Origin: Azospirillum thermophilum
GTDB taxonomy: Bacteria > Pseudomonadota > Alphaproteobacteria > Azospirillales > Azospirillaceae
Assembly (NCBI RefSeq): GCF_003130795.1
Contig: NZ_CP029353.1
Location: 1 to 64,000 of the forward strand
Length of the DNA: 64,000 bases
Reading direction: 5' to 3'
Shown here one piece after another: positions 1 through 42,329 of the stretch. Each line of letters starts with the position of its first letter. Position 1 is the stretch's first letter. A program made the position numbers and the translations under genes. The notes under the pieces were generated by a model. It was given only the letters and a program-made list of their open reading frames with translations, was not told where the DNA came from and did no database searches.

Positions 1-113
1 CCGGCAACGGACAAAGGCTGCAGCCAGCTGCGGTAGGCGATCTCGCCCACCTCGTCCTTGAGCCGGCCCCGGATGCGGGCCCATTGCTGATCCAACGACA
101 CGCCGACCGACAT
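1..113 (-). CDS. dnaA: Chromosomal replication initiator DnaA (N-terminal fragment, runs off the left edge)
   Basis: The minus strand from 113 reads MSVGVSLDQQWARIRGRL followed by KDEVGEIAYRSWLQPL. This is the typical start of DnaA domain I (Trp, then a helical stretch, then the conserved W-L-x-P-L turn). Domain I recruits DnaB helicase and partner proteins at oriC. Only about 37 codons are in the window; the AAA+ and DNA-binding domains lie beyond base 1. The next gene upstream is rpsT, about 870 bp away and on the same strand. The assignment rests on a short but characteristic stretch. Confidence 0.85.
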   Translation of the reverse strand, partial: MSVGVSLDQQWARIRGRLKDEVGEIAYRSWLQPLSVA

Positions 114-12673: not shown

Positions 12674-13091
12674 GCGTCAATGAGGCCTGAGCATTTCTGC
12701 TCAGGATGACCAGAACCACCTTACCAGATCACAGCAAGCCCAAATGATGCTTCAATGAGGCCTGAGCATTTCTGCTCAGGATGACGGGTCGATCTTCGCG
12801 TAGCCGCTGGCCTGCTTCGTCACGAGGCTTCAATGAGGCCTGAGCATTTCTGCTCAGGATGACACCGAGTACCTGACCGGCAAGCCGAACACGGCCGCCC
12901 TCGCGCTTCAATGAGGCCTGAGCATTTCTGCTCAGGATGACCAGATCGATGAGACCTTGACCCGCGAACTCGGCTTCAACGCTTCAATGAGGCCTGAGCA
13001 TTTCTGCTCAGGATGACCCATGATGGGCAGGTGGGTCTTGGCGCACGTCCAAGAGCTTCAATGAGGCCTGAGCATTTCTGCTCAGGATGAC
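12674..13091 (-). CRISPR. Orphan CRISPR array, 6 repeats and 5 spacers
   Basis: Six 37-bp repeats at 12674-12710, 12749-12785, 12827-12863, 12905-12941, 12981-13017 and 13055-13091. Five are identical; the first differs at its third base (GCGTC for GCTTC). Each holds the palindrome CCTGAGCA-TTTC-TGCTCAGG. Spacers are 38, 41, 41, 39 and 37 bp and all different. Read on the minus strand the repeat ends in ATTGAAGC, the usual form of the 3' end that becomes the crRNA 5' handle, and the degenerate repeat is at the far end. Transcription is therefore probably leftward with the leader to the right of 13091. No cas gene lies anywhere in the window. Confidence 0.93.
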
Positions 13092-24376: not shown

Positions 24377-24673
24377 TCAGCTCCGCCGGCGGGGGGAGGC
24401 GAAGGCCTGCGGCGCATCGCCCCGCGGCTCGCGGCGCGGCGGACGCGGACCGTCGCCGCGGCCCTCGCGGCCTTCCCGCGGCGGCTTGGGGGGCTGGCGC
24501 AGCTCCGCCTCCAGCTCGCCGATCCGCTTCACCAGCGCCTCGCGGATGGCGGGCGCCGCGTGGGACTTCAGCGTCGCGAGCTGCTCCTTGAGCTGCTGAA
24601 GCTGGATCTGCTTCTGCTCGCGGGTGCGCTTGATGGCGACGTTGTCGGAGTGCTGGCCGTCGAAGGCGCGCAT
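24377..24673 (-). CDS. Small hypothetical coiled-coil protein
   Basis: 98 residues from ATG 24673. The middle (REQKQIQLQQLKEQLATLKS, then IREALVKRIGELEAELRQ) is a strongly predicted coiled coil. The C-terminal third is a Pro/Arg/Gly-rich basic disordered tail. No family recognised. Nine bp separate its stop from the EamA start on the same strand, so the two may be co-transcribed. Upstream lies the first iteron block. Confidence 0.65.
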   Translation of the reverse strand: MRAFDGQHSDNVAIKRTREQKQIQLQQLKEQLATLKSHAAPAIREALVKRIGELEAELRQPPKPPREGREGRGDGPRPPRREPRGDAPQAFASPRRRS

Positions 24674-24830
24674 AACACTGGTCCTCGTATCAGGAAGTAA
24701 GGTTCCCGGCCGGGCTCCCGCTGCGGGCCCCGGCATGGAGGCCGGATTATTGGGAGGCGCCCGGGGCAAAGCAAGGCGGAGTTGCCCTTGACAACGCCGG
24801 CCGGACCATGGGGCGGCGGCCCCCACGGGT

Positions 24831-25143
24831 TTGGCAATCACCGACCGGGCACCGACCGGGCACCGACCGGCCGGAGCCCGAAAGCCGGGACGGCCGGATT
24901 TGGCAATCGCCGACCGCCGCGGCGGCACCGGCAAGCTTTGGCAATCGCCGACCAGGATGAAGCGGCGGAAGCCGGAATCGAGTCGGGGTCGAGTCGAGCG
25001 GAATCCACAGCCCGGCTTGGCGAACGCCGACCGAATCCTTGGCGAACGCCGACCGCGACTCGCGCTCATCCCCTGGCAATCGCCGACCATGCAAATAGAC
25101 TCCAGCAAATAGGTCCACAAATAGCCTGGTCGGCGATCGCCAA
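24831..25143. repeat. Iteron block upstream of repA
   Basis: Seven copies of a 16-bp iteron, consensus TTGGCAATCGCCGACC. Direct copies: 24831-24846 (CACC variant), 24900-24915, 24938-24953, 25017-25032 and 25039-25054 (both with GGCGAACGCC), and 25073-25088. One inverted copy is at 25128-25143. Two further GGGCACCGACC half-copies follow the first iteron at about 24848-24869. Direct repeats next to a RepA-type initiator are the usual initiator-binding sites of theta-replicating plasmids; they also set copy number and autoregulation. Confidence 0.85.
25089..25127. other. AT-richer spacer with AAATAG repeats in the iteron block
   Basis: Between the last direct iteron and the inverted iteron lie three AAATAG motifs (about 25093, 25107 and 25119), each preceded by C or GC. 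It is the least GC-rich stretch of this intergenic region and is a candidate unwinding element or promoter of repA. This reading is inference from position and composition. Confidence 0.4.
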
Positions 25144-25214
25144 ATGGACTCCCGGCCGCCCCCATGATCCATTCCGATCCAGTGACGGGGTCACACAAGG
25201 GATGGGAGATCGCG

Positions 25215-26138
25215 ATGGGAGACGTACATCAGCTTGTCATGGCGCATGGCCGGCAAGAGGCGCGCAACCTCGTGGATCCCAAGCGCGCCAGCGTCGTCGA
25301 CGTCGCCGCCGCGGTGCTGGAGGAGGAATCCAACGCGCTCGGCATCACCTATTCCGGATTCTGCCTGACCAGCCTGCCGCACCGCCGCCTGCCGGCCGAC
25401 GTCGAGTGGCGCCGCGACCAGGGGCGCGTCACGCTGCTGATCGAGCCGGGGCGGGAGCGCAAGCGCGACGGCAGCTTCGCCCATGTCGGCGTGCCCTACG
25501 GCGCCAAGGCCCGGCTGATCCTGCTGTATCTGCAGACCCGGGCGATCCAGGACAACAGCCGGGAGATCGAACTCGGCCGCTCGATGAACGCCTGGCTCGA
25601 CCGCATGGGGGTGTCGGCCGGCGGCTCCACCTACAAGGCGGTGCAGGAGCAGGCGACCCGCATCAACCTGTGCCGCCTGACCTTCTTCTGGGACAAGAAC
25701 GGCGCCGAGGGCTTCGCCAAGGAGAACATCGTCAGCGGCGGCATCCGCCTGCGCGACGACGACGGCCAGGGCACGCTGTGGCAGGAGACGGTGCAGCTCT
25801 CCGAGACCTTCTTCACCGCGCTGAAGCGCTCCCCGGTGCCGATCTGGGAGCCGGCGATCCGCCATATCGGCGGCTGTTCGATGGCGATCGACGTCTATGT
25901 CTGGCTCGCCTACCGGCTGCATGTGCTGCGCGAGCCGACGCCGGTCACCTGGGCCGCGCTGTTCAACCAGTTCGGCGGCGGCTACAAGGCGATGAAGCAC
26001 TTCAAGCCGGAGTTCCGCGAGGCGCTGGATCTGGCGCTGGCGGTCTATGAGGCGGCGCGGGTCGAGGTCAACGAGGCCGGCGTGATGCTGCGCCCCTCCG
26101 CCCCGCCGATTCCCGAGCGGATGATCGCCTGCCGGTGA
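25215..26138 (+). CDS. repA: RepA-family plasmid replication initiator
   Basis: 307 residues. The sequence matches the 'plasmid encoded RepA protein' family of alphaproteobacteria: ALGITYSGFCLTSLPHRRLP, GVPYGAKARLILLYLQTRAI, EIELGRSMNAWLDRMGVSAG, RLTFFWD and SMAIDVYVWLAYRLH are hallmark stretches of its winged-helix initiator core. It binds iterons and opens the origin of large plasmids or chromids. GGGAG lies 8 bp before ATG 25215, favouring it over ATG 25164. A partial iteron overlaps the stop codon. No parA/parB pair is next to it. Finding it on a dnaA-bearing chromosome is unusual. Confidence 0.88.
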   Translation: MGDVHQLVMAHGRQEARNLVDPKRASVVDVAAAVLEEESNALGITYSGFCLTSLPHRRLPADVEWRRDQGRVTLLIEPGRERKRDGSFAHVGVPYGAKARLILLYLQTRAIQDNSREIELGRSMNAWLDRMGVSAGGSTYKAVQEQATRINLCRLTFFWDKNGAEGFAKENIVSGGIRLRDDDGQGTLWQETVQLSETFFTALKRSPVPIWEPAIRHIGGCSMAIDVYVWLAYRLHVLREPTPVTWAALFNQFGGGYKAMKHFKPEFREALDLALAVYEAARVEVNEAGVMLRPSAPPIPERMIACR

Positions 26139-26389
26139 TTGCCGCCGGTGATTGCCAATGGCTCCGGCCGCGCGAATCGCGCGGAGTCGGCGATTGCCAA
26201 GAGCCGGGCCACGGGTTTGGCCGGACGGTTGGTGGAGTCGGCGATCGCCAAGGACGCCGGTCAGGGGGCGGCCGGAAACGGAAGGCGCCGGGCGGCGGGA
26301 AGCCGCTCCGGCGCTTCGGCTTTGGGGAATCCTGCTGATTCCGGTCGGTGATTGCCAAAGCGTAACGAGAATCTTGGCAATCGCCGACC
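26132..26389. repeat. Iteron block downstream of repA
   Basis: Inverted-orientation copies of the iteron (consensus here GGTCGGCGATTGCCAA) at 26145-26158, 26185-26200, 26236-26251 and 26343-26358, and one direct copy at 26374-26389. A partial copy at about 26132-26142 overlaps the repA stop codon. The last two copies face each other across 15 bp. Iterons on both sides of the initiator gene, mostly in opposite orientation, frame the whole module. Confidence 0.82.
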
Positions 26390-26393
26390 GCGC

Positions 26394-27647
26394 TCACTTC
26401 CCGGCGCCGGGAGCCGCCGGCTCGCGGCTCTGGAACAGCCGGCCGCGCTCCGTCACCAGGACGGTCAGCAGGGCGAGCGCGCCGAGGCTGAGGAAGCCGA
26501 TGCACAGCGGGCGGACCGTCCCGTCGAAGGACTGGCCGACCATCCAGCCGCACAGGGCCGCCGCCGCCGTCGTGTAGAAGCCGATGAAGGAGGAGCCCAT
26601 GCCGGCGACATGGCCGAGCGGCTCCATCGACAGCGCGTTGAAGTTCGGGCCGATCAGGCCGAAGCAGAAGAAGCTGACGGCGAGGAAGCCGCAGAAGACG
26701 AAGAGCGGCAGTTCCTGCGGGAAGCCCAGCACCGCCAGCACGCCCCAGGACAGCAGGTTGATGATCAGCGCCACATGCGACACCCGCCGCATGCCGAGCC
26801 GGCCGACCAGCCGCGCGTTGGTCAGCGAGGCCAGCGCCATCGCCGCCGCGATCGCACCGAAGGCCAGCGGGAACAGGTCACCCAGCTTGTAGACGTCGAC
26901 GAAGATCTGCTGGGCCGAACCGACGTAGCTGAGCAGCCCGCCGAACATGAAGCCGGCGGCCACCGTGTAGCCGACCGTCACCCGCGTGGTGACCACCCGG
27001 TGGAAGGCGTTGCCCAGCGCCGCCGCGGTCAGCGGCATGCGGTCGCCGGCCGGCCGCGTCTCCGGCAGGCGCAGGCCCGACCAGACGAGCGCGACGGCCG
27101 AGGCGAGGAACAGCACGCCGAACACCCATGGCCAGGTGCCGACCCACAGGATGCTCTCGCCCACCATCGGCGCGATGATCGGCACGATGATGAAGACCAT
27201 CATGACGAAGGACATGACGCGCGCCATCTCGCGTCCGACGAAGCAGTCGCGCACGATGGCGATGGCGACGATGCGCGGCGCCGCGGCGCCGAAGCCCTGG
27301 AGCGCGCGGGCCGCCAGCAGCAGCCCGAAGCTGGGCGCCAGCGCCGCCCCCAGCGACCCGATGGCGAAGATGACGAGCCCGACCGCCAGCACCGGCTTGC
27401 GTCCGAAGCGGTCCGACAGCGGCCCGTGGAAGGGTTGGCCGACGGCGAAACCCAGCATGTAGGCGGTGATGATGAACTGCTGGTCGTTGGCCCCGGCCAG
27501 CCGGTACTCGTGCGCGATCTCGGGAAGGGCGACCAGCATGATGTCGATGGACAGCGCCGTCATCGCCATCAGCAGCGCGGTCAGGGCGACGAACTCGACG
27601 AATCCGAGCCCGATCGTCCGCGAAGAGGAGGAGGAATTGTCAGCCAT
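26394..27647 (-). CDS. MFS drug-resistance transporter (Bcr/CflA family)
   Basis: 417 residues from ATG 27647, with 12 hydrophobic segments. The Bcr/CflA signature is visible: ALSIDIMLVALPEIAHEYRL, the loop GQPFHGPLSDRFGRKPVLAV and RALQGFGAAAPRIVAIAIVR. Proton-coupled efflux of drugs such as bicyclomycin or of sulfonamides is known for the family; the actual substrate is unknown. An in-frame extension to 27731 exists but is Arg-rich and not membrane-like. Its 3' end abuts the last iteron. Confidence 0.92.
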   Translation of the reverse strand: MADNSSSSSRTIGLGFVEFVALTALLMAMTALSIDIMLVALPEIAHEYRLAGANDQQFIITAYMLGFAVGQPFHGPLSDRFGRKPVLAVGLVIFAIGSLGAALAPSFGLLLAARALQGFGAAAPRIVAIAIVRDCFVGREMARVMSFVMMVFIIVPIIAPMVGESILWVGTWPWVFGVLFLASAVALVWSGLRLPETRPAGDRMPLTAAALGNAFHRVVTTRVTVGYTVAAGFMFGGLLSYVGSAQQIFVDVYKLGDLFPLAFGAIAAAMALASLTNARLVGRLGMRRVSHVALIINLLSWGVLAVLGFPQELPLFVFCGFLAVSFFCFGLIGPNFNALSMEPLGHVAGMGSSFIGFYTTAAAALCGWMVGQSFDGTVRPLCIGFLSLGALALLTVLVTERGRLFQSREPAAPGAGK

Positions 27648-27741
27648 GGCGCGACTGTGAAGCGGTCTCACCGGTTCGGCAAGCCGCCACCGTCGCTCCG
27701 GCCGCATGGCTGCCCTTAGGGCAGCCCCCATGGCAGCCGGC

Positions 27742-29135: not shown

Positions 29136-29319
29136 TTTTTGCTCTGTCACAATGGGATGGTCGTTCAATACAGGGGAAAACCGGAACGGCGCGTATTTTT
29201 CCGAAGTACAGACCGGTCGCTGCGTTTGGCGGGAAATTATGCAAGCACGGCCTGCAGCTTCCAGGGAGCACCGGTCCCCGCGGGCCCGGCAAAACCAGGA
29301 CACCGCGATCAGGACATGG

Positions 29320-29353
29320 AAAGGCCCCGAAACGCGTGGCGTTTCAGGGCCTT
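29320..29353 (-). terminator. Residual tRNA-Thr terminator at the left island end
   Basis: AAAGGCCCCGAAACGC-GTG-GCGTTTCAGGGCCTT hairpin. It corresponds in place and outer stem to the hairpin downstream of the intact tRNA-Thr at 42217-42250, and marks what was the original chromosomal 3' flank of the tRNA. Confidence 0.65.
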
Positions 29354-29359
29354 GAAAAC

Positions 29360-29405
29360 TGGTGCCGCAACAGGGATTTGAACCCCGGACCTACTGATTA
29401 CGAAT
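29360..29405. repeat. attL: 46-bp duplicate of tRNA-Thr 3' half
   Basis: Identical over 46 bp to 42255-42300, starting at the CCA-encoding TGG and running through the T-arm, variable region and anticodon stem to the anticodon loop. After 29405 the sequence diverges (AAGGC instead of CAGTTG), so there is no functional tRNA here. Confidence 0.92.
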
Positions 29406-29537
29406 AAGGCGCTCCATACCGAAACGGGATGACGCAATCCGACGCGGACCCCGCTAAACACATTGATATGTCGTCTTATTTCGAGTTACCCTCTGACTCT
29501 GTGACGACACAGGGCGACACTAAATGCGGGTCCGCAA

Positions 29538-29557
29538 GGTCCGCTACGGGTCCGCTG
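29538..29557. repeat. Candidate integrase arm-type site, left
   Basis: GGTCCGCTACGGGTCCGCTG, identical to 42167-42186 near the other island end. The unit GGTCCGC recurs at 29529, 29538, 29549 and 29560, giving a small tandem cluster 130 bp inside attL and just before the integrase start. Confidence 0.5.
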
Positions 29558-29586
29558 TAGGTCCGCTGAAACGTCCGGGGGAAGAC

Positions 29587-30888
29587 ATGAAGCTCACTGA
29601 AAGGACCATTGCGGCGCTGGCTTGCGAAGAGGGCAAGCGCGACCGGCTGGTGTTCGATGACACGGTGTCCGGGCTGGGCGTTCGTATCACTGCATCCGGT
29701 AGCAAGACCTTCCTCGTTCAGTACACGGTGGCCGGACAGAAGCGCCGCGTTCCCCTGGGACGCTGGGGAAGCCTGTCGCTCGACCAAGCCCGCACAGCCG
29801 CCCGTGGCATCCTGGGCGACGTGGCGAAGGGTGCGGACCCAGCTGCGGACCTGAAAGCCGCCCGTGAAGCCGCCGCGACGGAGGCGCAAGCCGAAAAGCT
29901 CACGCTGCGCGTCCTGCTGGAAGATTGGGACAAGCTCGGGCTGGTCAGCCGGCGGGACAGCTACCGCAAGGAAGCGGTGCGCGCGGTGTCCACCGTCTTC
30001 GCCGCCTTCCTCGACCGGCGGGCCGACGCCATCACCCGCGCCGACGCGGTGCGCACCCTCGACGCCCTGGTGAAGAACGGCAAGCATGCCATGGCCGGGC
30101 GCACGCTGGCCTATGGCCGCGCCTGTTTCGGCTGGGCCGTGAAGCGTGACCGGCTGGCCGCCAACCCATTCCAGGGGCTTCCCATCCCCGCCGCCATCAC
30201 CGCGCGGGATCGGGTGCTGTCGGATGAGGAGGTGGGCGCGATCTACGAGGCCGCCGGGACGCTGGGCTATCCCTTCGCCCCGCTGGTCCGCCTGCTGCTG
30301 TTGACCGCGCAACGGCGCGATGAGGTGGCGGGCATGCGCTGGTCCGAAATCAGCGACGACATGACCGTATGGACGTTGCCGGGCGACCGGGCGAAGAACG
30401 GCAAGCCCCATGTCGTTCACCTGTCCGACGAAGCCCGCGCCGTTCTGGCGACCGTCCCCCGGCAACAGGACGATGAGGGACACCCCATTGACCTGCTGTT
30501 CACCACCACCGGCAAAACCCCCGCGTCGGGCTTTTCCAAGGCTACGGAGCGGCTAACCATCGCGGTTGAGAAACACCGGATCGCGCTGGCGGAGAAAGCC
30601 GGGAGGAAGCCGCCGAAGCCGATGCCGGAATGGCGGCTGCATGATTTCCGCCGGTCCTGCGTCACTTGGCTGGCCGGGGCGGGCTTCTCCCCCCATGTCG
30701 CGGACAAGCTGCTGAACCATGTCGCGGCGGGCGGGCTGTCGGACGTGGGCCGCGTCTACCAGCGCAACGCCTTCCTGCCCGAACGCAAAGCCGCCCTGGA
30801 AACCTGGGGGAAGCATGTCCTGGCCTGTGTGGACGGCAAACGGTCGGAAACCGGCAACATCGTACCCCTTCCGGTGCGGAGCGCCTGA
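29587..30888 (+). CDS. int: Tyrosine-type site-specific integrase
   Basis: 433 residues from ATG 29587. The N-terminal Arm DNA-binding domain (DUF4102-like: KLTERTIAALACEEGKRDRL, then DTVSGLGVRITASGSKTFLVQY) is followed by a core-binding domain and a catalytic domain. Catalytic residues are visible: Arg in LLTAQRRDEVAGMRW, Lys near GDRAKNGKPH, His-x-x-Arg in LHDFRRSCVTWL, and Tyr in GRVYQRNAFL. It should integrate and excise the island at tRNA-Thr. An in-frame codon at 29524 is possible but would run through the GGTCCGC repeats. Confidence 0.95.
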   Translation: MKLTERTIAALACEEGKRDRLVFDDTVSGLGVRITASGSKTFLVQYTVAGQKRRVPLGRWGSLSLDQARTAARGILGDVAKGADPAADLKAAREAAATEAQAEKLTLRVLLEDWDKLGLVSRRDSYRKEAVRAVSTVFAAFLDRRADAITRADAVRTLDALVKNGKHAMAGRTLAYGRACFGWAVKRDRLAANPFQGLPIPAAITARDRVLSDEEVGAIYEAAGTLGYPFAPLVRLLLLTAQRRDEVAGMRWSEISDDMTVWTLPGDRAKNGKPHVVHLSDEARAVLATVPRQQDDEGHPIDLLFTTTGKTPASGFSKATERLTIAVEKHRIALAEKAGRKPPKPMPEWRLHDFRRSCVTWLAGAGFSPHVADKLLNHVAAGGLSDVGRVYQRNAFLPERKAALETWGKHVLACVDGKRSETGNIVPLPVRSA

Positions 30889-31002
30889 CCACGTTGGACC
30901 GTATGGAACGGCGCGCATAGCCGATCTTGCGAGACTATCTTTCCGCGTAACCGCTATGGCATGAAGGAGGCGCTTTTCGTCCGTTCGTGAGGATTTTTCA
31001 TA

Positions 31003-34000
31003 ATGAACGCCGCCCTTGCTCAACTCCTTGAAGAGTTCCGGTCCTATGCCCAAACGGAACGTGAGAAGGGCGGGTATTTCGAGCGCTTCGCCGTGGCCTT
31101 CATCAAGAACGATCCGGGCATGCGGCAGGAATACGAAGACGCATGGCTCTATTCGGAATGGGCCACGCGGAACGGTCTGAACGCCAAGGACACCGGGATT
31201 GATGCGGTCGCCAAGATCAAGGACGAAGACAGCTTTTGCGCGATCCAGTGCAAGTTCTACCAGACCGGACACCGGATACAGCGCGCGGACCTGGACAGCT
31301 TCTTTACCGCATCCGGGGTGCGGAAGTTCACGCGCCGCCTGATCATCGACACCACGGACGCGCCTTGGGGAACCAACGCCGAAGCGGCATTGGAGGATCA
31401 AGACAAGCCAGTGTCCCGGATCGGGCTGGACCGGCTGAGCGACAGCCCGATTGATTGGTCGGCCTACCTGCTGCGCGATGAAATCCGACTCGCGCCGAAG
31501 AAGGAAATCCGCCCCCACCAGCAAGAGGCATTGGAAGCCGTCCGTAACGGCTTGGCAGAGGCCGACCGTGGCAAGCTGATCATGGCGTGCGGCACCGGCA
31601 AGACCTTCACCGGCTTGAAGATCGCCGAGGATTTGGCGGGCACCGGCAAGACCGTGCTGTTTCTGGTCCCGTCGCTGGCCTTGATGAGTCAGACCATCCG
31701 CGAATGGACCATCGACGCGGCGCTACCGTTGCGCGCCTTCGCCGTCTGTTCAGATGTGCAGGTCGGCAAGCGCCGCCGCTCCAACAGCGACGTTGCCGAG
31801 ATCGAAACCCACGATCTGGATTACCCCGCCACCACCGACGCGGCCAAGCTGGCGCAACGCGCGGCGCAGCCGGCCCCCGACCGCATGACCGTGGTGTTCT
31901 CCACCTACCAATCCATTCAGGTCATTTCCGACGCACAGAACAGGCACGGTCTGGGCGCGTTCGACCTGATCATCTGCGACGAAGCCCACCGCACGACGGG
32001 CGCGACGCTGGACGGTGACGAGGAAAGCAACTTCGTCAAGATCCACAACCAAGACTTCATCGCGGGCGCCAAGCGGCTCTACATGACCGCGACCCGCGCG
32101 TGTTCGGCGATGCGGTCAAGAGCAAGGCCAATGAAGCATCCGCCGTCCTGTGTTCGATGGATGACGAGACGCTTTACGGCAAAACCCTGTTCACCCGTGG
32201 GTTCGGCTGGGCCGTCGAGAACAAGCTGTTGACCGACTACAAGGTTCTTGTGCTGGCGGTAGACGAAACCCTGGTCAGCAGCGGCGTGCAACGCCGTCTG
32301 GCCGATGGAACGTCCGAACTGAAGCTGGACGACGCCACCAAGATCATCGGCTGTTACAAGGCGCTGACCAAGCATGGTCTGCATGGCGACCTGCCGACCG
32401 ACACTCAGCCGATGAAACGGGCGCTGGCCTTCTGCAAGGACATCGCCACGTCAAAGCTGATCCAGCAGGAATTCGCCCAAGTCGTCGCCGAATATCTGGA
32501 GTCTGACGAAGGCAAGGCGACCACGGCCGATGACGAAGTGCTGGAATGCCAGTTGGAGCATGTGGACGGCACCTTCAACGCCAAGGACCGCAACCGGCTG
32601 TTGGAGTGGTTGAAGGAAGACCATGACGGCAACGCCTGCCGCATCCTGACCAACGCCCGCTGTCTGTCGGAAGGGGTGGACGTTCCGGCGCTGGACGCCA
32701 TCCTGTTCATGCATCCGCGCAAGTCACAGATTGACGTAGTTCAGTCGGTCGGCCGGGTGATGCGCCGCGCCACCGACAAGAAGCTGGGCTATGTCATCCT
32801 CCCCGTGGGCGTTCCGGCCGGGGTGACGCCGGAAGAGGCGTTGAACGATAACGACCGTTACCGCGTGGTCTGGCAAATCCTGAACGCCCTGCGCTCCCAC
32901 GACGAACGCTTTGACGCCATGATCAACAAGGTTGATCTGGGCGTTGACGTGTCCGATCACATCGAAGTGGTGGCCGTGGTCAAGGACCTGCCCGAAGCCA
33001 CCGAAAAGGGCACGGGCAAGGCCGATGTTGGCGGCAAGCCGTCGTCCGACAGCGACGATGACCGGGGCGACGACCGGCCGCAGGACACCGGCCCGGCGCA
33101 AGCCTCCTTCGTCTTCGATGAGATTTCCCGCGCCATCATGGCGAAGATCGTCAAGAAATGCGGACGGCGGGACTATTGGGAGGATTGGGCCACCGACATC
33201 GCCAAGATCGCCCAAACCCACATCACCCGCATCACCGCCCTGGTGGAGAAGCCCGGCACCCCGGAACGCAAGGCGTTTGACGCCTTCCTGGCCGAAATCC
33301 GCGACGATTTAAACGACAGCGTGACCCCGGCCGAAGCCGTCGAGATGCTGGCGCAACACATCATCACCCGCCCGGTGTTCGATGCGCTGTTCGAGGGCTA
33401 CAGCTTCGCCCAAAGCAACCCGGTGTCGGTGGCGATGCAGCGCGTGTTGGCCGCCCTGGACGAACACAATCTGGACAAGGAGTCCGCCAGCCTCGAAAAA
33501 TTCTATGACAGCGTGCGGCGCCGCGCGGCTGGAATTGATAAGGCGGAAGCAAAACAGAAGATCATTGTCGAACTGTACGACAAATTTTTCCGCAATGCCT
33601 TCCCGAAGATGACCGAACGGCTGGGGATTGTTTACACCCCCGTCGAGATTGTCGATTTCATCATTCATTCTGTGAATGAGGTTCTTCAATCGGAGTTCGG
33701 CCAGACGCTGGGCAGCAAGGGCGTTCACATCATCGACCCGTTTGTCGGAACCGGAACCTTCATCACCCGCCTGCTGCAATCCGGTCTGATCCGCCGGGAG
33801 GAGATGGAACACAAGTACCGCCACGAAATCCACGCCAACGAAATGGTTCTGCTGGCCTACTACATCGCCGCGATCAATATCGAAGCGGTGTATCACGGCA
33901 TCATGGGCGGGGAGTATGTATCTTTCGATGGTATTTGCTTGACTGATACATTCCAGCTTTATGAGCAGGAAAAGGATTTGGTCAGTGATTTGATGGCGGA

Positions 34001-35933
34001 TAATAGCAATCGCCGCACCCGACAAAAAGATCTGGATATTCGGGTAATCGTTGGCAATCCTCCTTATTCCGCAGGGCAAGGCAATTCGAACGACAACGCT
34101 GCAAATTTGGGATATCCAAAGCTTGATCAAAAGATCCGTGATACCTATGCAGCGCGCTCAAGTGCGACCAACAAAAACGCACTGTATGATAGTTACATCC
34201 GCGCCATCCGCTGGGCTAGTGATCGCATCGGAGATGCTGGCGTTGTGGCCTACGTTTCCAACGCCGGTTGGCTCGACGGCAACACGACCGATGGGCTTCG
34301 GAAATGCTTGAGCGATGAATTCTCAAGTATTCACGTCTTTCACTTGCGCGGAAATCAGAGGACTTCCGGTGAGCGATCCAAGAAAGAAGGGGGGAAGGTC
34401 TTTGGCAGTGGCAGCCGGACGCCGGTAGCCATCACGTTGCTGGTGAAAAATCCAAGCATTACGACCCAATGTCACATTCGTTTACATGATATTGGAGACT
34501 ATCTAACCCGAGAAGAAAAGTTGGCTATCGTATCTCGTTTCGGCAGTGTTGGCGGGATTGACCAAAAGAAAGGCTGGAAAAATATCACGCCTGACGTGCA
34601 TGGCGATTGGCTGGGGCAGAGAGACAAAAGCTTCGATGCGTTTATAGCAATCGGAGACAAAGAGAGTGAACAGGCCGCAGCCGTATTTTCTAACTTCTCA
34701 AGAGGAATAGCAACCGCACGAGATGCGTGGTGTTACAATTTCAGTTACAATTCTCTTGCATCCAATATGAGTGCGATGATCAATTTTTATAACCATGAAG
34801 TCGATAGATTTTCCGCATTGCATTTCGGGAAAGATCGAAATGTGCGCGATGAACTTATAGATGATTTCGTCAACAGTGATCCGTCAAAAATCAGCTGGAG
34901 TCGGGGCCTTAAGAGTGATATCGCGAAAGGAAAAAAGCATAATTTTGATGGTTCTCGGATTCTCCCAAGTATCTATCGGCCATTTACTCGATCCTGGCTT
35001 TATTGCAGTCGTCATTTTAACGACATGATCTATCAAATTCCGCGCATCTACCCGGATGCATCGGTAAAAAATCAAGTGATATGTGTTCCGGGCAAAGGTG
35101 GAGACAAAGGGTTCTCTGCGCTGATGCTCGGCTCAATCCCTGATCTTAATCTTGCGCCTGGAATGGGAGGATATCAGTGCTTTCCCCGCTATCTTTATGA
35201 AGAGGTAACGGTAAAGGCCAGCGATGCCCCGCAACGTGGACTGTTCGATAGCGCCCCCAATACAGCAGGGGATAAATACACCCGTCGCGACGCCATCACG
35301 GACGAAGGCTTGGCGCACTTCCAAGCCGCCTATCCAGGCGAGTCCATCACCAAAGACGACCTGTTCTATTACGTCTATGGCCTGCTGCATTCGGAGGAAT
35401 ATCGGGATCGGTACGCCGACAACCTGTCCAAACAGTTGCCGCGCATCCCCGCCGTCAAGCCCTATGCCAACTTCCGGGCCTTCGTCGAGGCTGGGCGGGC
35501 CTTGGGTACGCTTCACGTCGATTACGAGAGCGTGGAACCCTATCCGCTGACCTTCACCCGTGGCGATGTCGGATTGGCCCCGCCCGCCGACCCGCAGAGC
35601 TTCTATCGGGTGGAACAGATGAAGTTCGCTGGCAAGCGCCCGAAGCTGGACAAGACGACGGTGATCTACAACGCCAACATCACCGTGACCGGCATTCCGC
35701 TGGAAGCCTATGACTATGTGGTCAACGGCAAGTCGGCGATTGATTGGGTGATGGAACGCCAATGCGTGAAGACCGACAAGGCCAGCGGCATCGTGAATGA
35801 CGCCAACCTGTACGCCATCGAAACCGTGGGCGATCCGGCCTATCCGTTGAAGCTGTTGCAGCGGGTGATTACCGTGAGCCTCGAAACCATGAAGATCGTC
35901 CGCGCCCTGCCCCCACTGGGCGACCTGTCGTAA
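31003..35933 (+). pseudogene. Type ISP-like single-chain restriction-modification enzyme, one frameshift
   Basis: The whole reading is about 1,643 residues, the size of Type ISP enzymes such as LlaBIII. Order: Mrr-like PD-(D/E)xK nuclease (GIDAVAKIKDEDSFCAIQCKFY, cut across two lines of evidence: Asp67, Gln82/Lys84), SF2 helicase (MACGTGKTF, IICDEAHRTTG, YMTAT), helicase lobe 2 (SVGRVMRR), gamma-class N6-adenine methyltransferase (DPFVGTGTF about residue 908; NPPY about 1016), then a target-recognition region. The frame breaks at a C3 run (32093-32095); a fourth C would restore the expected TATPRVFGDAV. From about 33915 to 35260 the DNA is much AT-richer, suggesting a swapped specificity module. 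A sequencing error may explain the break. Confidence 0.88.
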
Positions 35934-36167
35934 CCGGGACCATCGGCGCATCCGGTGAAGGGATGGGGCCAGCCGCTTGGCCCTTTCCCGCAAAAGCGAT
36001 ACCTCTGAGGCAAAATTGAGTTCCATTCGCACAACGTCATGTTCCGCAGGTGCTCTGCCTCGTTTAATCGCGAGGTAGAACATGAAAATTTGGCTTCCTC
36101 AGGATGGTTACACAGGAAATATCAACAACATTCCCCAAACAGCACCATAAAAACATGGAATAAAAGC

Positions 36168-36950
36168 ATGCCTGAGTTCAAGTTTTCTTTAATTTCTTCG
36201 TATGAAGCAGTTAATTTGTTAGCGCCGTGCTTTGGGGGAACCGCCCCAATACACAAGTTGCAGGCGGAAAAATGGATAAAATCTCTTTCAGAGAGTCGAG
36301 GCATTTTTGCATTCTACAGGCAAGTCACTCGATACAAAGTGGTGAATGCGTCAACAAACAATGAGGGAACCTTCTCTGACATTATTGAAGATGATGTTGT
36401 TCCGATAATGGATTTTGACAAAGAGATAACTATTGACACAGAGAAACTTTCCACGCTCCCCACGTTGCTTGGCGATACACAGAAGGACGGAGAAATCAGT
36501 GAGAAAGAAGAATTCTTTTGGGGAACACAAAATGGCGGAGCAAGAGTTCTTATAAGAACTCGCAGATATAGCAAATTGTCAGAAGGAGTTATTACAGAAT
36601 ACGTGAATTATTCGTCAGAAATATATCATTCAAAAGAGCATATACTGTGGCTGATAGGTGATCCTGGGGGGATAGAACCTATCAAGCAAGTGAAAGCTGA
36701 AAAAACTTCTGACAAACGTCAATATGCAAAACGCTGGGACTGGGAGGGCGCCCTAATTCACCTAATAAAATTAGCCGACTTAAATGGACTTCCCGAAGGA
36801 AAGGGCGTGAATGAACGCGGCAAACAGGCGCGCCTTGAAGAGATAATGGCACAATGGTTCGCAGATAAAAACAATGGCGACACACCCGCCAATAGCGAGT
36901 TACGCCACAGAGCACGACGTATCATCGACGTCCTTGGTGACATGGATTAG
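36168..36950 (+). CDS. AT-rich ORFan, island cargo
   Basis: 260 residues from ATG 36168 (MPEFKFSLISSYEAVNLLAP). I do not recognise a family. No signal peptide or membrane segment. The middle is acidic and beta-like, and the C-terminus (GKQARLEEIMAQWFADKNNG, then SELRHRARRIIDVL) is helical, with a pattern seen in small phage-encoded helical domains. Base composition is far AT-richer than the host, so it is recently acquired. It sits between the restriction enzyme and the AlpA-like gene, the cargo position of phage satellites. An in-frame earlier start at 36039 is not supported. A 22-codon open frame at 36082 has a GAGG upstream but no other support. Confidence 0.7.
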   Translation: MPEFKFSLISSYEAVNLLAPCFGGTAPIHKLQAEKWIKSLSESRGIFAFYRQVTRYKVVNASTNNEGTFSDIIEDDVVPIMDFDKEITIDTEKLSTLPTLLGDTQKDGEISEKEEFFWGTQNGGARVLIRTRRYSKLSEGVITEYVNYSSEIYHSKEHILWLIGDPGGIEPIKQVKAEKTSDKRQYAKRWDWEGALIHLIKLADLNGLPEGKGVNERGKQARLEEIMAQWFADKNNGDTPANSELRHRARRIIDVLGDMD

Positions 36951-37012
36951 CATCGCTAACGCCAACCATTCCAACCATTCCGGCCGAAACTAGAAGCTCA
37001 ATCCAACACACT

Positions 37013-37042
37013 GCCTTCCATCGACACCAGCCGATGGAAGGC
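37013..37042. promoter_or_regulatory. 11-bp inverted repeat before the AlpA-like gene
   Basis: GCCTTCCATCG and CGATGGAAGGC are separated by 8 bp, ending 5 bp before the GTG start of the AlpA-like gene. It could be an autoregulatory operator or a translation-controlling hairpin. Confidence 0.5.
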
Positions 37043-37047
37043 ACGCA

Positions 37048-37326
37048 GTGACCGACACATCACATATCCCGCTCCTAACAAAGAACTTCGCGCGCCCCGC
37101 TGTTGAATGCGCCAGTTCCCGTTTCTTCAATGAACGCCAAGTTGCTGACCTGCTGGGCGTAACCACGCGGACTTTGCAGCGTTGGCGCGTGACTGGCGAA
37201 GGCCCCGCCTGGGTTCGGATCGGGGTGCGCTTGATCCGCTACGCCGAAACCGATGTGGCTGCCTGGAAGGAACGCCACACCTACGCCCATCGGGCCGCCG
37301 AACTGGCGGGAGGGGCGAACGGATGA
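37048..37326 (+). CDS. AlpA/MerR-type helix-turn-helix protein
   Basis: 92 residues from GTG 37048. The core FFNERQVADLLGVTTRTLQRWRVTGEGPAWVRIGVRLIRYAETD is the HTH_17 winged-helix domain of AlpA/excisionase-type regulators (the wing carries RLIRY). In satellites such proteins activate excision or replication genes. The start is imperfect (no strong Shine-Dalgarno). The stop overlaps the next start (ATGA at 37323-37326). Confidence 0.85.
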   Translation: MTDTSHIPLLTKNFARPAVECASSRFFNERQVADLLGVTTRTLQRWRVTGEGPAWVRIGVRLIRYAETDVAAWKERHTYAHRAAELAGGANG

Positions 37327-37640
37327 AAGTTCGTCCAATGCCTTCCCCCCGGCCGGTATCGTTCGACCGGGTGAACGCTGCGGCGCTGGCCGCGTTGCCC
37401 GCCATCCTGGCCCGCCTGTTTCCCGCCGGGAAGCGGGAGGGGGCCGAATTCGTCATTGGCAACCTGAACGGCGATCCGGGCCGCTCCCTGCGGGTGTCGT
37501 ACCGCAAGGGCTGCTGGCGGGACTTCTCCGCCGACATCGGCGGGGCGGACCCGGTGTCCCTGGTGGCCGCCAAAGAGAGGGTGTCCCAAATCGAGGCCGC
37601 CCGGCTGCTGGGCCGCATGCTGGGGGTGGACCATGGTTGA
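37323..37640 (+). CDS. Primase N-terminal-like small protein
   Basis: 105 residues. The stretch EFVIGNLNGDPGRSLRVSYR, then GCWRDFSADIGGADPVSLVA, is the N-terminal module that precedes Toprim/DUF3987 replication proteins in islands and prophages (it resembles a degenerate zinc-binding primase domain with a single Cys). Its ATG overlaps the AlpA-like stop, and its stop overlaps the next start, so three genes are translationally coupled. Confidence 0.7.
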   Translation: MKVRPMPSPRPVSFDRVNAAALAALPAILARLFPAGKREGAEFVIGNLNGDPGRSLRVSYRKGCWRDFSADIGGADPVSLVAAKERVSQIEAARLLGRMLGVDHG

Positions 37641-39833
37641 CGCCTACGCCCCTTTGACCGTGGCGGAACGGGCGACGCTGGCCCCCGCCGCCAGCGCCCG
37701 GCCGATATGGGAAACGATCCTCCCCGTCCCGGAGGACGCCCCCCGCAGCATTCCGCCGCACCGGCTGGGCAAGCCGTCCGCCAAATGGACGTACCGGAAC
37801 CCGGCCGGCAAGCTACTGGGGCTGGTCTGCCGGTTCGACCATGAGGGCGGCAAGGACGTGCTGCCGCTCACCTACTGCCGCAACGGCGCGACCGGGGAAA
37901 CCGCATGGTGTTGGCAGGCGCTCCCGGTTTCCCGTCCGCTCTATGGACTCGACCGGATGGCCGACCGTCCCGATGCCCCGGTTCTGGTGACGGAGGGGGA
38001 AAAGACGGCGGACGCGGCGGAACGGCTGTTCCCCGACCATGTGGCCGTGACCAGCCCCGGCGGATCGAAGGCCGCCACCAAGGCCGATTGGACCCCGCTG
38101 CGGGGACGCCACGTCACGGTTTGGCCGGATGCCGACGAACCGGGCCGCGCCTATGCCGAAGAGGTTGCCCGGCTGGCGCTGGCCGCCGGGGCGGCTTCCG
38201 TCCGCATGGTGGACGCGCCCATGGTCGAATGGCCGACCGGGTGGGACTTGGCGGACGATCCGCCGCCGGACACCAGCCCCGAAGACCTGCGGGCCATGCT
38301 GGACGGCGCGCGGCAGGTGGAGGGCTTCGGCCCGCCCGGTATTGGCGGAGATGACTGGCCGCCGCTGGTGGAGTTGGACGCACCAACGCTGCCGCGACTC
38401 GACCGGGCCGTGTTGCCCTGTTGGGCTGGTGAGTTCGCCGCGTGGCTGGCGGATGCGACCGAAACCCCTGTGGAGCTTGCTGCGGCTATGGTGCTGGCCG
38501 CGTGTGCCACTGCCGCCGCCCGCCGGTTCCGCGTCATGGTCCGGCCGGGCTATTTCGAGCCGACGAACCTCTGGATTGCCGCAGCACTGCCGCCCGGCAA
38601 TCGCAAGTCTGCGGTTCAGTCCAACGCCGCCGCCCCGCTGCTGGCTTGGGAACGGGAGGAAGCCGACCGGCTGGCCGATGCCATCAAGGCCGCCATATCG
38701 GACGTGAAGACGGCAGAAGCTCGGGCAAAGGAGCTTCGGGCAAAGGCGGCAAAGGCCGCTGACGACACGGAAGCCCGCGACCTTGCCGCACAAGCCGCCG
38801 CCATCGAAGCCGACATGCCGGAAGTACCCCGTGCCCCGCAGCTATGGACCAGCGACGTGACGCCCGAAAGGTTGGGGATGATCCTGGCCGAGCATGGCGA
38901 ACGCATCGCGTGGCTTTCCAGCGAAGGCGGCATCTTCGACCTGTTGGCCGGACGCTACAGTGGTGGAGTGCCGAACCTTGACCTGATCCTAAAGGCGCAC
39001 TCGGGCGACTCGGAACGGGTGGACCGCGCCGGACGCCCGCCGGTCTTTCTGGCGCACCCGCTGCTGACGGTGGGGCTGTCCCCGCAACCGGACGTGCTAC
39101 GCGGGCTATCGAGCAAGCCGGGGTTTCGGGGGCGGGGGTTGCTGGGGCGGTTCCTGTTCCTGCTCCCGCCGTCACCGCTGGGCAACCGGACGCTGAACGC
39201 TCCCCCGATGCCGGATCGCGTCGCCAGCGCCTACGCGGCCGGGCTATGCGCCATCCTCGACGTTCCTCCCGCCGTTGGCGATGAGGGAGAGGAACGCCCG
39301 CACCTGCTGCGGCTGGCTCCCGACGCCTGTGCCGAGTGGTTGGCCTTTGCCCGCCATATCGAAACCACCATGCGGCCGGGCGGGGAATTCGAGCATGCGA
39401 CCGACTGGGCCGGCAAGGCGCCGGGTGCCGCCATCCGGCTGGCCGGTGTGCTGCATGTCATCGAGACGGTACAGGCGCAAGCCTGGGGGCGGGATATCAG
39501 TCTCGACACCATGGCGCGGGCGCTGAACATCATGGCCGTGTTCGCCAAACATTCCCGTGCCGCCCTGGACCTCATGGGAGCCGATGAAGGCACAGCCGCC
39601 GCCCGCAAGGTCTGGGAATGGATCAATGCCGGCCGGCGGGAATGCTTCGCCGTACGCGACGCCTTCAACGCGCTCAAAGGCTCCTTCCCCGCGTGGCGAT
39701 GGTCCGGGCTGCACTCGAAGCCCTAGAAGAACGCGGATACGTCGAAATCGCCGAACCGACCACATCCGGCCGGGGCCGCCCACCGTCGCCCATGGTGACG
39801 GTACGCCCGGACATCGTCGGGGGTTGGCGATGA
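37633..39833 (+). CDS. Toprim/DUF3987-like replication protein (frame break near the C-terminus)
   Basis: The intact frame runs 37633-39726 (697 residues). An N-terminal Toprim-type region shows PVLVTEGEKTADAAERLF, AVTSPGGSKAATKADW and HVTVWPDADEPGRAYAEEVA (Glu and Asp-x-Asp metal ligands). A DUF3987-like helicase-associated region follows (PTNLWIAAALPPGNRKSAVQ, ERIAWLSSEGGIFDLLAGRY). At a C4 run (39687-39690) the expected ending moves to the next frame (RVAMVRAALEALEERGYVEI, then GRGRPPSP), stopping at 39833; one more C restores it. It probably drives island replication. Confidence 0.82.
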
Positions 39834-40389
39834 GTTGGCGCGCGATTATGGGCGTTGCTCCCGCCCCGAAACACGATCCGCAGAAATCGCACAATCCGCA
39901 GAAATCGGAACAGGCCGCCATTTCTGCGGATATTGCGAATATTGCGGATGGCATTTCAACCACGACAGGGGTGGCTTCACCTGCCCCGGACGGTGCGGGC
40001 GACCAGTGGTCCGACTGGGGAACCGTCGCCGACACCAGTCGCCCCCATCGTCTCCCGAGTCGGAACCGGCGGATTGGCTGGCATGGTTCCGAACCGAAAT
40101 CGCCCGCCGCGTTCCCGCCCTTGGCGCTGCTGCCGCAGACCGGCGGGTATGGGGGATCGCGCTGAACCTGTGGCATCGCTGGCATGGCGAGCGGCCGGAC
40201 CCCGGATGTTGCGCGGGCTGTGGCCGTCCTGTCGGACAGGGCTTCCAATTACCGGACGGAGCCGCGATCCATGACGACGCGCGGTTCATCGACTGCCTTA
40301 TCCGCTACGGCCATCGTTGGCGGGGCCGCGCCGCCGCCGGGCTGTCGGCGCTGGGGTTGCGGGAACCGGATGAAGGGGGCGACCGATGA
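39830..40389 (+). pseudogene. Hypothetical island protein, probable frameshift
   Basis: ATG 39830 overlaps the end of the previous gene. The first part (MSWRAIMGVAPAPKHDPQKS, then ADIANIADG) resembles the linker-rich start of proteins that follow DUF3987 genes. The likely C-terminal part lies in the next frame: ESEPADWLAWFRTEIARRVP, RVWGIALNLWHRWHGERPD, then CCAGCGRPVGQGFQLPDG, a possible zinc ribbon. The switch falls around 40036-40062 in C-runs; one missing base would explain it. Function unknown. Confidence 0.5.
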
Positions 40390-40682
40390 CCCGCCCCGAT
40401 CCTGTGGGACCGTGGAAGCCCGACCTTCCCCCCGCCGAACGGCTGGCCCAATGGCGCGGACCGCGGGCGCTGGCGACGCCCCCGTGTCCGGGCGATGGTG
40501 GCGGGCAAGGATTGACCGGGCATAGACGGATTTTCGGCGCAGTACGCGCGGGGGATGGGATGCCCAAAGGGTTTCAGGGGGCTATGCGCGCGGGGATCGT
40601 CAAGGAGTGCCTAGAGTTTTTGGAGTCCAATAAAAAGGGATGCGCTAGGCCAAACAGGTTGACCGGACAGAGACAGGTTTGA
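40386..40682 (+). CDS. Small hypothetical island protein
   Basis: 98 residues from ATG 40386, overlapping the previous stop (ATGA). The start MTRPDPVGPWKPDLPPAERL is similar in style to small proteins at this place in related islands. The rest is not recognisable, and given the nearby frame breaks the true ending may be in another frame. Confidence 0.35.
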   Translation: MTRPDPVGPWKPDLPPAERLAQWRGPRALATPPCPGDGGGQGLTGHRRIFGAVRAGDGMPKGFQGAMRAGIVKECLEFLESNKKGCARPNRLTGQRQV

Positions 40683-42166
40683 CCTGTGGCAATGGTTCGC
40701 AGGCAGGTACGCACTGATTTCACGCGCGCACCGTCAATCCGGGCATAGCCGTTTCGGAATTTTCCGACTCGGAAAAAAGGGGATAGCGTCGGTAATGCCC
40801 ACACCCTTTGCGGCCAGCGCCCGAGAGGGAATTTCGACATAGGTATCGCGCACGCGCGCGAGAGAAGGTCACGGGGGGGCAGTCACGGGCCATGAGCCAA
40901 AAAGGGACGGACCCTTGGCACTGGAAACCTGACTGTGGGGCAGGTTTTGCAACGCCCGAAAGGCTGGGAAGTGAGGGGCCAACTTCGCATCTACTTCGCA
41001 ACCCAATACGCGCGCGAGGGGGCGGATAATGCCGCACGGTGCGGTATTTTCTGACTATGGGGAAGGGGGATAACATCCCCGGCAAAGGCAAGGGGCAGAA
41101 ACCGGACAGGTTCACCTTGCGCGCGTCAACAATTCAGATGTTGACCCTAGGGGGGGGTGCCGATCCTGACCACGGCGCAGGGCGCGACCGGATAGGGAGT
41201 CTTTCCGTGCGCGTGCAAAATGGAGGGGAAAAGGCAGGGGGGCGGTTTCGATCTTTGGGACGATTTGGGGTAGGCATCGGACAGGGGTTGAATTTTCGAG
41301 CGCAGCAAAAACAGGACCGGGAGCTATCGGGGTGCAAGGCCGCAGGATCGCGGGGACCGTCACGGGGCCGGCAGATAGGGAACGGGACGCGACAGGCCAC
41401 CCACGGGGCGGCTGACGGGCGGGGGGAAGGGGATTAAAATCTTCGGAGGGTTGCATAGGAGCGTTACCGGACAGGTTGCACGCACAGATTTAACCGCTCC
41501 GTATGATTTTGATGTGCGAACCATTGGGCTGATTGGTGCGCTCAACCCATTGTGACGTAGCGACAATCTAAATATCCGCCCCCGGATTGATTTTGAAGCC
41601 ACAGGGACAACATGGGCAATCCCCATGTCGGATAGGGGCGATAACCTGTGCGGCACTCAGGTTTCACGGCGCGGCAACTCTCCTTCCTGGGGGCAGTCGG
41701 CCAGTGCGGGGCGCCGATAATGTCGGCTATGACGTCATTTGAAAGATGCGACAGCTAAACCGATTTCATCGGGTCAGTCCAAAGGGGACGCATGCCGTGC
41801 GTGCCCCTGTGAACCCCGATCTGCTGCTGAACGTAGAACCCTGCTGACCGGCGGGCAAGTTACCGGCTGAGTTACCAGCGGGAACCCAAAAAAGGGGTGA
41901 CAGGAAACACCGGGGAAACACCCCCAACGCGCGAGAGAGGCAGCGGCAGAGTGGTTTCCATTTGGTTTCCAGCGCCTACGCGCGCGGACAGTCAACGCCG
42001 GCATCTTGATAGCAATCAAGCAAGGAAGCGAAATTTCAAGATGGGCAGTTTGACAGCGGTTAGACGGCATCGGCCCGGCTGGGGGATGCCAGCCTGGGGC
42101 CTTTGATTGCCTGTCAAAAGATCAGAGGAAATCAGAAAGGGGACGGACCCGGATTTCCGCCCGGCG
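40683..42166. other. Non-coding tail of the island with repeated GCGCGC motifs
   Basis: About 1.5 kb without coding-like frames. GCGCGC-type cores recur near 40726, 40853, 41011, 41118, 41927 and 41975, with two related copies just upstream at about 40548 and 40584. CCGGACAG recurs near 40666, 41101 and 41467. Two stretches (about 40723-40748 and 41973-42003) share ACGCGCGC ... GTCAA ... CGGCAT. A G8 run lies at about 41150. It may be the replication origin or control region of the island; this is inference from repeats and position after the primase genes. Confidence 0.45.
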
Positions 42167-42186
42167 GGTCCGCTACGGGTCCGCTG
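42167..42186. repeat. Candidate integrase arm-type site, right
   Basis: GGTCCGCTACGGGTCCGCTG, identical to 29538-29557, 69 bp inside attR. Paired identical repeats near both ends fit integrase arm sites. Confidence 0.5.
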
Positions 42187-42216
42187 CAAAATTGAGCTTG
42201 CGGACCCCGGACATGG

Positions 42217-42250
42217 AAAGGCCCCGAAAGGCGTTACCTTTCAGGGCCTT
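42217..42250 (-). terminator. Terminator of tRNA-Thr, carried by the island
   Basis: Minus-strand hairpin AAGGCCCTGAAAGG-N4-CCTTTCGGGGCCTTT just after the tRNA 3' end. Its outer stem equals that of the left-end hairpin at 29320-29353, while the inner bases differ. Confidence 0.7.
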
Positions 42251-42254
42251 AGAG

Positions 42255-42329
<75 letters not shown>

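Follow-up and report, generated by a model that had tools for sequence, protein, structure and literature searches.

An intact plasmid-type RepA/iteron module on the dnaA-bearing chromosome of Azospirillum thermophilum, a candidate accessory origin

Introduction

The usual teaching is that a bacterial chromosome has a single origin. Exceptions that carry an additional one, of plasmid or chromid type, are already known, and the accessible passages of the respective papers describe V. cholerae NSCV1 and NSCV2 as carrying one (PMC6284228), a dicentric chromosome of A. tumefaciens in which CcrM methylation affects ori2 (PMC11514494), and a chromosome-chromid fusion in C. necator KK10, where it is the fusion and not origin activity that is reported (PMC8729776). 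With NSCV1, NSCV2 and the A. tumefaciens chromosome, as characterized in those passages, the locus presented here shares a second plasmid- or chromid-type origin on the molecule that carries the main one; whereas all of these cases, KK10 included, join a whole second chromosome or chromid, the present one concerns a bare origin found in many species. The repABC chromid origins of alphaproteobacteria are GANTC-rich according to the available portion of PMC6090056, a property that recurs here next to an initiator of a different family and without partition genes. The nearest relatives in architecture are the RepA_C iteron plasmid replicons, for example those of Azospirillum plasmids, with which the locus has in common a RepA-family initiator, repeat arrays and an A+T-rich repeat placed between direct and inverted repeats, but from which it differs in residing on a dnaA chromosome with its own oriC and in having no adjacent parAB.

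In the strains studied in PMC3899980, the accessible passages assign a typical oriC to the largest replicon only and plasmid-type systems to all others, and they mention no chromosomal RepA; the accessible passages of PMC13342612 and PMC3245306 likewise contain nothing on chromosomal RepA in Azospirillum. Within the open literature, a scope that leaves most subscription papers aside, we found no account of Azospirillum chromosomes with a conserved RepA/iteron origin, nor of clade-wide retention of a plasmid-type origin without a fused chromid.

Results

The window (the whole analysed stretch of 64,000 nucleotides) makes up the beginning of contig C2, which is 2,538,983 bp long and belongs to a genome of 6.78 Mb in nine contigs, hereafter G000. 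It opens within dnaA, whose frame is continuous across the joined ends of C2, so that C2 looks like a closed main chromosome with repA 25 kb from dnaA. The features considered below are the following.

1-113, minus strand: 5' end of dnaA (start codon 113-111), the remainder lying at the other end of C2
23426-24367, minus strand: EamA transporter gene, left neighbour, outside the module (Pfam)
24831, 24900, 24938, 25017, 25039 and 25073, plus strand: six direct iterons of 16 bp each (range 24831-25088)
24975-25151: eight GANTC sites in the upstream flank of repA
25091-25125, plus strand: A+T-rich tandem repeat of three CAAATAG units, presumed unwinding element (DUE; from sequence and conservation)
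25128-25143, minus strand: inverted iteron, presumed autoregulation operator, 71 bp upstream of the RepA start
25215-26138, plus strand: repA, RepA_C family initiator of 307 aa (Pfam, structure model)
26108-26373: seven GANTC sites in the right flank, the first one inside repA
26143 (minus), 26185 (minus), 26236 (minus), 26343 (minus) and 26374 (plus): five right-flank iterons (range 26143-26389)
26394-27731, minus strand: MFS transporter gene, right neighbour, outside the module (Pfam)

The preliminary description of this DNA, made from the letters alone, had proposed a RepA-family initiator at 25215-26138, and a profile search bears this out: residues 93-238 match Pfam RepA_C (PF04796) at 81.8 bits against a curated cut-off of 26. 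The open frame spans 25164-26138, and homologue alignments begin at the ATG at 25215. A search of NCBIfam gave no match, and a sequence search of the PDB with RepA gave no usable one; the structure model (pLDDT 86.5) has as its best PDB matches domains 2-3 of RctB and RepE54, both replication initiators, with TM scores of 0.44-0.53 over the model for RctB domains 2-3 (5ubf, 5tbf). The predicted fold is thus closest to the initiator of ori2 of Vibrio chromosome 2, although sequence identity in these alignments is 11-12% and RctB runs a separate chromosome. Four further RepA_C genes are found in the genome, on contigs C1, C5, C8 and C9, those of C1 and C5 having a ParB gene within 3 kb; the chromosomal RepA is 52-60% identical to the RepAs of C5, C8 and C9 and 40% identical to that of C1.

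Flanking repA are 12 copies of the iteron TTGGCRATCRCCGACC at two mismatches or fewer, seven on the left (24831-25143) and five on the right, in agreement with the count first proposed and against a chance expectation of 0.28 per window on average and 4 at most (100 dinucleotide shuffles of the 64-kb window). A thirteenth match in the window, at 62604, looks like chance. At one mismatch or fewer the 6.78-Mb genome holds 16 matches, 11 at repA and five scattered on C2, and no second cluster was found in it; titration of another replicon of the same cell by the same iterons was rejected on this ground.

Toward repA, the direct iterons give way to the A+T-rich repeat, an element absent from the preliminary description, and then to one inverted iteron and the repA leader. 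The last three direct iterons are spaced by 22 and 34 bp; in five relatives (G032, G017, G029, G010 and G004) the corresponding spacings are 22 and 33-34 bp, and the inverted iteron follows 54-56 bp on, values close to whole helical turns. RepA modules on other contigs of the same and related cells display the same element order with different repeat sequences, and similar A+T-rich repeats are present in plasmid-type and other chromosomal modules. The locus presents what defines a RepA_C plasmid replicon as regards the initiator scoring above cut-off, the iteron array beside repA and the A+T-rich candidate unwinding element, all within a bare origin of about 1.6 kb, and departs from it in having no partition genes beside repA; nor does a DnaA box, which the family may require, occur at one mismatch or fewer in 24401-26800. 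As initially noted, the neighbours are ordinary chromosomal genes, with no plasmid genes at the module borders and no adjacent parAB; the two ParB_N matches of C2 lie at 91,019 and 231,064.

Both flanks of repA are rich in GANTC. The densest 400-bp stretch of the window in this respect starts at 24961 and contains 10 sites, two of them inside repA, and the second densest is the right flank with seven; three of the 17 sites in the two stretches fall within the gene. Upstream of repA, 350 bp contain eight sites, a density of at least eight being reached by one of 3938 sampled chromosomal stretches of that length in what was a post hoc test. The same upstream interval holds 4-10 sites across the six type I modules counted (the type of the window, defined below), 6-7 in three type II and three g10 modules, and a widely varying 2-14 in plasmid-type modules.

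A conventional origin region was located at 218-251 kb of the same contig. Five DnaA boxes (one mismatch or fewer) cluster at C2:217,769-218,069, and they are followed by three sites at 220,147, 227,519 and 229,511 (the last extending to 229,524) matching what we take to be the parS motif, and by parB at 231,064, where parAB is found close to these sites. An exact search for TTATCCACA was uninformative by itself, one mismatch together with clustering being needed to recognize the DnaA-box clusters. As plain GC skew and third-codon skew in 20-kb samples were too noisy, GGGNAGG counts were used; per 10 kb from 221 kb these read 4/10, 3/8, 4/4 and 8/1, placing the strand switch at about 241-251 kb, 23-33 kb from the DnaA boxes. 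Clustered DnaA boxes, parS and a skew switch thus stand close together on C2, as expected of a main chromosome driven from a DnaA-dependent oriC. Two relatives give the same picture, with DnaA-box clusters of four and five at 90,013-90,304 of contig C1 in G004 and at 2,500,044-2,500,334 of C1 in G027, and with switches at 58 kb (3/11 then 9/2) and 2,461 kb (1/8 then 12/1), respectively. In all three chromosomes sampled the switch lies toward parAB, at a distance of 23-39 kb from the clustered DnaA boxes, and none has a switch at repA, which lies about 192 kb (G000), 72 kb (G004) and 188 kb (G027) from the cluster; an estimate of the chance of such ori-proximal placement gives a product of 0.001, post hoc. 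With only one clear GGGNAGG switch near an origin, oriC is the dominant origin by strand skew. The suggestions that the contig might be a chromid, or that an iteron/RepA origin might serve the chromosome instead of a DnaA origin, are consequently not supported, and the presence of DnaA boxes, parS, parB and dnaA on one contig led us to reject both a chromid and a RepA-only chromosome.

From about 40 to 220 kb of C2, the stretch that separates repA from oriC, G000 has a flat GGGNAGG skew. Such flatness is a signature of either two origins or rearrangement, and would fit two origins; it is seen also in G004 but not in G027, and G000 and G004 differ by rearrangement in this region, for which reasons we do not use it as evidence.

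The module recurs in related genomes. RepA of the window type (type I, 88-100% identity to the window RepA) is encoded by 20 of the 45 genus genomes, this one included; the orthologues in 19 of the 44 others are 88-94% identical, and each of these 19 modules, in the 3.9-kb loci read, has 10-12 iterons at two mismatches or fewer. Across the genus, the iterons are clustered in G037 and in all 20 genomes of type I; four others have one match each and 20 none. Type I repA shares a contig with dnaA in 12 of 20 carriers, the other eight being draft assemblies with the two genes on different contigs. A distance of about 25 kb from dnaA, as the preliminary description gave it, holds here but is no general rule, the 11 type I relatives with both genes on one contig showing 167-257 kb. 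A second type, 54-55% identical to the window RepA and with iterons of the form GTGGGGNNAAGCGRCCG (read by eye), is present in 17 of 45 genomes, 10 of them placed by the RepA tree and seven by identity and frame length alone; it lies on the dnaA contig in eight of the 17, all eight sharing two neighbouring genes upstream of it and one downstream, and on a different contig in nine. In G044 type II repA is only 21 kb from dnaA and divergent from it (843015 and 864839 on C1), like the genes of the window and of g10 (below); in the other type II genomes the distance amounts to hundreds of kb.

Placed RepA copies in the 45 genus genomes are those among the matches listed, weaker copies, such as a second one in G011, being without position. 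On this basis neither type occurs in eight of the 45 (G011, G012, G014, G016, G023, G030, G040 and G042), of which G030 is very fragmented and G011 has, beside its weaker match, one on a contig other than that of dnaA. The dnaA contig of G014, an assembly of four contigs, has no RepA match at E <= 1e-10 among the matches listed; with eight genomes of neither type in all, G014 among them, the module is not indispensable to the genus. Other dnaA contigs carry more than one: among the matches listed, C1 of G018 has one further RepA, C1 of G033, a 7.5-Mb contig with three RepA matches in all, has two, and C1 of G035 (3.07 Mb) has three of other types, the type II RepA of this genome sitting on a separate 1.15-Mb contig. 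These are either further captures or merged assemblies, so that the chromosomes or else their assemblies are not simple. G037, a type II genome without a type I copy, has on the 15-kb contig C32 a 78% identical RepA (L133, L177) with the same iteron type and, beside it, an autoinducer synthase gene on that contig; this RepA may be a plasmid copy.

At family level, a search at E <= 1e-40 found RepA in 68 of 82 genomes. All six genomes covered in genus g10 (G058, G059, G060, G061, G063 and G064; G062 was left out of the count) encode a different RepA, with iterons of the CGGACTTTACCGGCC type, on the contig of dnaA, the two genes being divergent and 33-50 kb apart; the stretch upstream of this repA contains TTATCCACA in five genomes and TTACCCACA in G063. 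Three genomes of other genera (G053, G067 and G078) have a single RepA match, on a contig other than that of dnaA. Among 72,556 plasmid records searched, from which those close to this genome were possibly excluded, none of the 756 that matched encodes a RepA at least 60% identical.

While the module is kept, its location is not, neighbours differing between lineages. In the brasilense group it stands between a GlnD-like gene and, farther on, MurJ and TrpS genes, in G017 near DnaJ- and ClpB-like genes and in G032 next to a Dus-like gene (all by eye from translations, TrpS being Pfam-confirmed for this window); by the same reading, none of these neighbourhoods looks like a plasmid backbone. Over 20 kb around the repA of G004, matches to the window are limited to the module and a pcp-trpS block.

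Sequence comparison also speaks to selection. Median dN/dS (NG86) is 0.064 for type I RepA (190 pairs) and 0.039 for type II (45 pairs), and g10 RepA has a median dN of 0.009 and a median dS of 0.27 (21 pairs). Fifty-six type I pairs have identical proteins encoded by different DNA, and one identical protein is common to 11 type I genomes whose genes differ. In an alignment of the window with 13 relatives (the 78% identical relative from G037 excluded), invariant columns make up 47 of 64 in the iterons and 27 of 39 in the A+T-rich repeat (25089-25127), compared with 7 of 24 in the spacers, 16 of 62 to the left of the counted iterons, 9 of 56 in the leader and 8 of 15 directly after the inverted iteron. 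Low dN/dS and invariant iteron and DUE columns together imply that both protein and origin DNA are kept, in line with the earlier argument that intact repeats point to selection; that the module has been kept intact by selection is well supported. An intact second site in related species suggests that it still does a job, although the same signal of selection would be expected if the module served plasmid exclusion or regulation.

In the RepA tree, types I and II do not form a sister pair. Type II clusters with a RepA that the present strain encodes on a 55-kb contig, and type I with the RepAs of two other contigs, 17 and 252 kb in length. The 55-kb and 17-kb groupings recur in a second tree that includes g10 and omits eight long or divergent sequences retained in the first (L009, L151, L152, L156, L158, L159, L160 and L179), and there g10 RepA groups with that of the G053 contig without dnaA. 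DnaA proteins in the genus are as little as 83% identical to this one, and a DnaA tree that includes 10 genomes as outgroup unites the type II genomes and four with neither type in a clade, with type I genomes both beside and outside it; type I requires at least three changes and type II at least four on this tree of one gene, which covers 43 of 45 genus genomes (without G005 and G042) and has some weakly supported forks. The nesting of type II among type I genomes makes exchange, rather than simple loss, plausible. In the simplest history, type I would have been captured early and given way to type II in one clade, losses would have occurred here and there, and g10 would have made a capture of its own.

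Discussion

Capture of a plasmid iteron origin by the chromosome, one of the possibilities raised at the outset, is well supported by the grouping of its RepA with RepAs of smaller contigs, the plasmid-like architecture of the origin, the non-plasmid flanks and the presence of a conventional oriC. The reading we favour, with a rough probability of 0.45, is that the captured origin is retained as an accessory, cell-cycle-coupled origin beside the DnaA-dependent oriC. A bare iteron origin consisting of repA, iterons and A+T-rich repeat would have been taken up by the main chromosome of an Azospirillum ancestor. From the anatomy and homology described above we infer that RepA would bind the direct iterons, melt the A+T-rich repeat that separates the last of these from the inverted iteron, and recruit or load the replisome, while RepA on the inverted iteron would repress repA. 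The GANTC clusters may couple firing to CcrM methylation and hence to the cell cycle; autorepression and methylation would together limit the origin, which would fire rarely, conditionally or late, thus leaving oriC to set the strand skew.

Iteron incompatibility is a known property of iteron replicons, and chromosomal iterons with RepA might titrate and handcuff incoming plasmids of the same group, in which case selection would keep sites and protein but not firing. Such plasmid exclusion, which we regard as unlikely, agrees with the difference in iteron family between clades, as shifting plasmid targets would favour, and predicts the lack of closely related RepAs among the 756 plasmid records. 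It sits poorly with a protein identical in 11 genomes, unlike the outcome of an arms race, and with the 78% identical RepA of G037, which has the same iteron type on a 15-kb contig and indicates that relatives do circulate, albeit in a host without type I. Moreover, the A+T-rich repeat, which titration does not need, roughly equals the binding sites in conservation, and this suits an origin better than a function in titration alone.

RepA and iterons might instead time or switch the chromids from the chromosome, much as crtS does in Vibrio, without initiating replication. The ori-proximal placement would provide an early duplication signal, the cell contains several large RepA/ParB replicons to coordinate, and the predicted RepA fold resembles RctB; crtS, however, is not known to carry an initiator gene of its own, and no target in trans was found, since none of the remaining replicons of G000 has a cluster of these iterons and its further RepA modules have different repeats. 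A coordinating role of this kind also seems to us unlikely.

If the module were a selectively neutral remnant of plasmid integration, still alike between genomes by chance or because it is recent, this would account for the missing skew switch at repA and for the absence of the module from some relatives. Such a reading is largely refuted, and its probability is low, given the dN/dS values of both types, the conservation of iterons and DUE beside diverged spacers, and presence across much of a genus whose DnaA proteins diverge to 83% identity. Of the two signs by which the preliminary description would have recognized a relic, a skew switch elsewhere is indeed observed, but iterons and RepA are conserved and not decaying in relatives; a decaying relic is ruled out by dN/dS and column conservation.

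Plasmid initiators can replace oriC (integrative suppression), and the flat skew between repA and oriC in G000 could be read in the same sense; that RepA drives the main origin instead of DnaA is nevertheless very hard to maintain in view of three chromosomes that have a conserved DnaA-box cluster, parS and the skew switch at other places, and of a G014 dnaA contig without a RepA match among those listed. A plasmid misjoined into the chromosome is scarcely credible, for although a single assembly of the strain was read and some relatives, such as G033 with its 7.5-Mb dnaA contig and three RepA matches, may be misjoined, the module is on the dnaA contig in 12 of 20 carriers and has no plasmid genes at its borders here.

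The accessory-origin reading admits an extension that we consider doubtful, namely that two origins are the permanent state of main chromosomes in much of the Azospirillaceae: oriC, and an iteron origin open to exchange. One Azospirillum clade would have replaced the latter by one with unrelated iterons, another genus would have gained its own independently, and selection would thus maintain RepA-driven second initiation and not one particular plasmid. If an accessory origin is indeed at work, these culturable soil bacteria would offer a natural, long-lived two-origin system, in which a bare plasmid origin persists intact on the main chromosome of many species while its neighbours have changed and its type has been swapped in a related clade. 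For annotation, a repA/iteron match does not prove a contig to be a plasmid or a chromid.

Additional features of the window

Apart from the module, an Rfam scan identified a CRISPR array of five CRISPR-DR16 repeats at 12749-13091 (minus strand). A G+C-poor stretch at about 29300-42300, falling to 0.51 in 2-kb windows, contains a tyrosine integrase gene (29524-30888), has tRNA-Thr (42255-42329) near its far end and is probably a genomic island. A Type ISP restriction-modification gene at 31003-35933 is split into overlapping frames (31003-32232 and 32100-35933), reflecting a frameshift or an assembly error.
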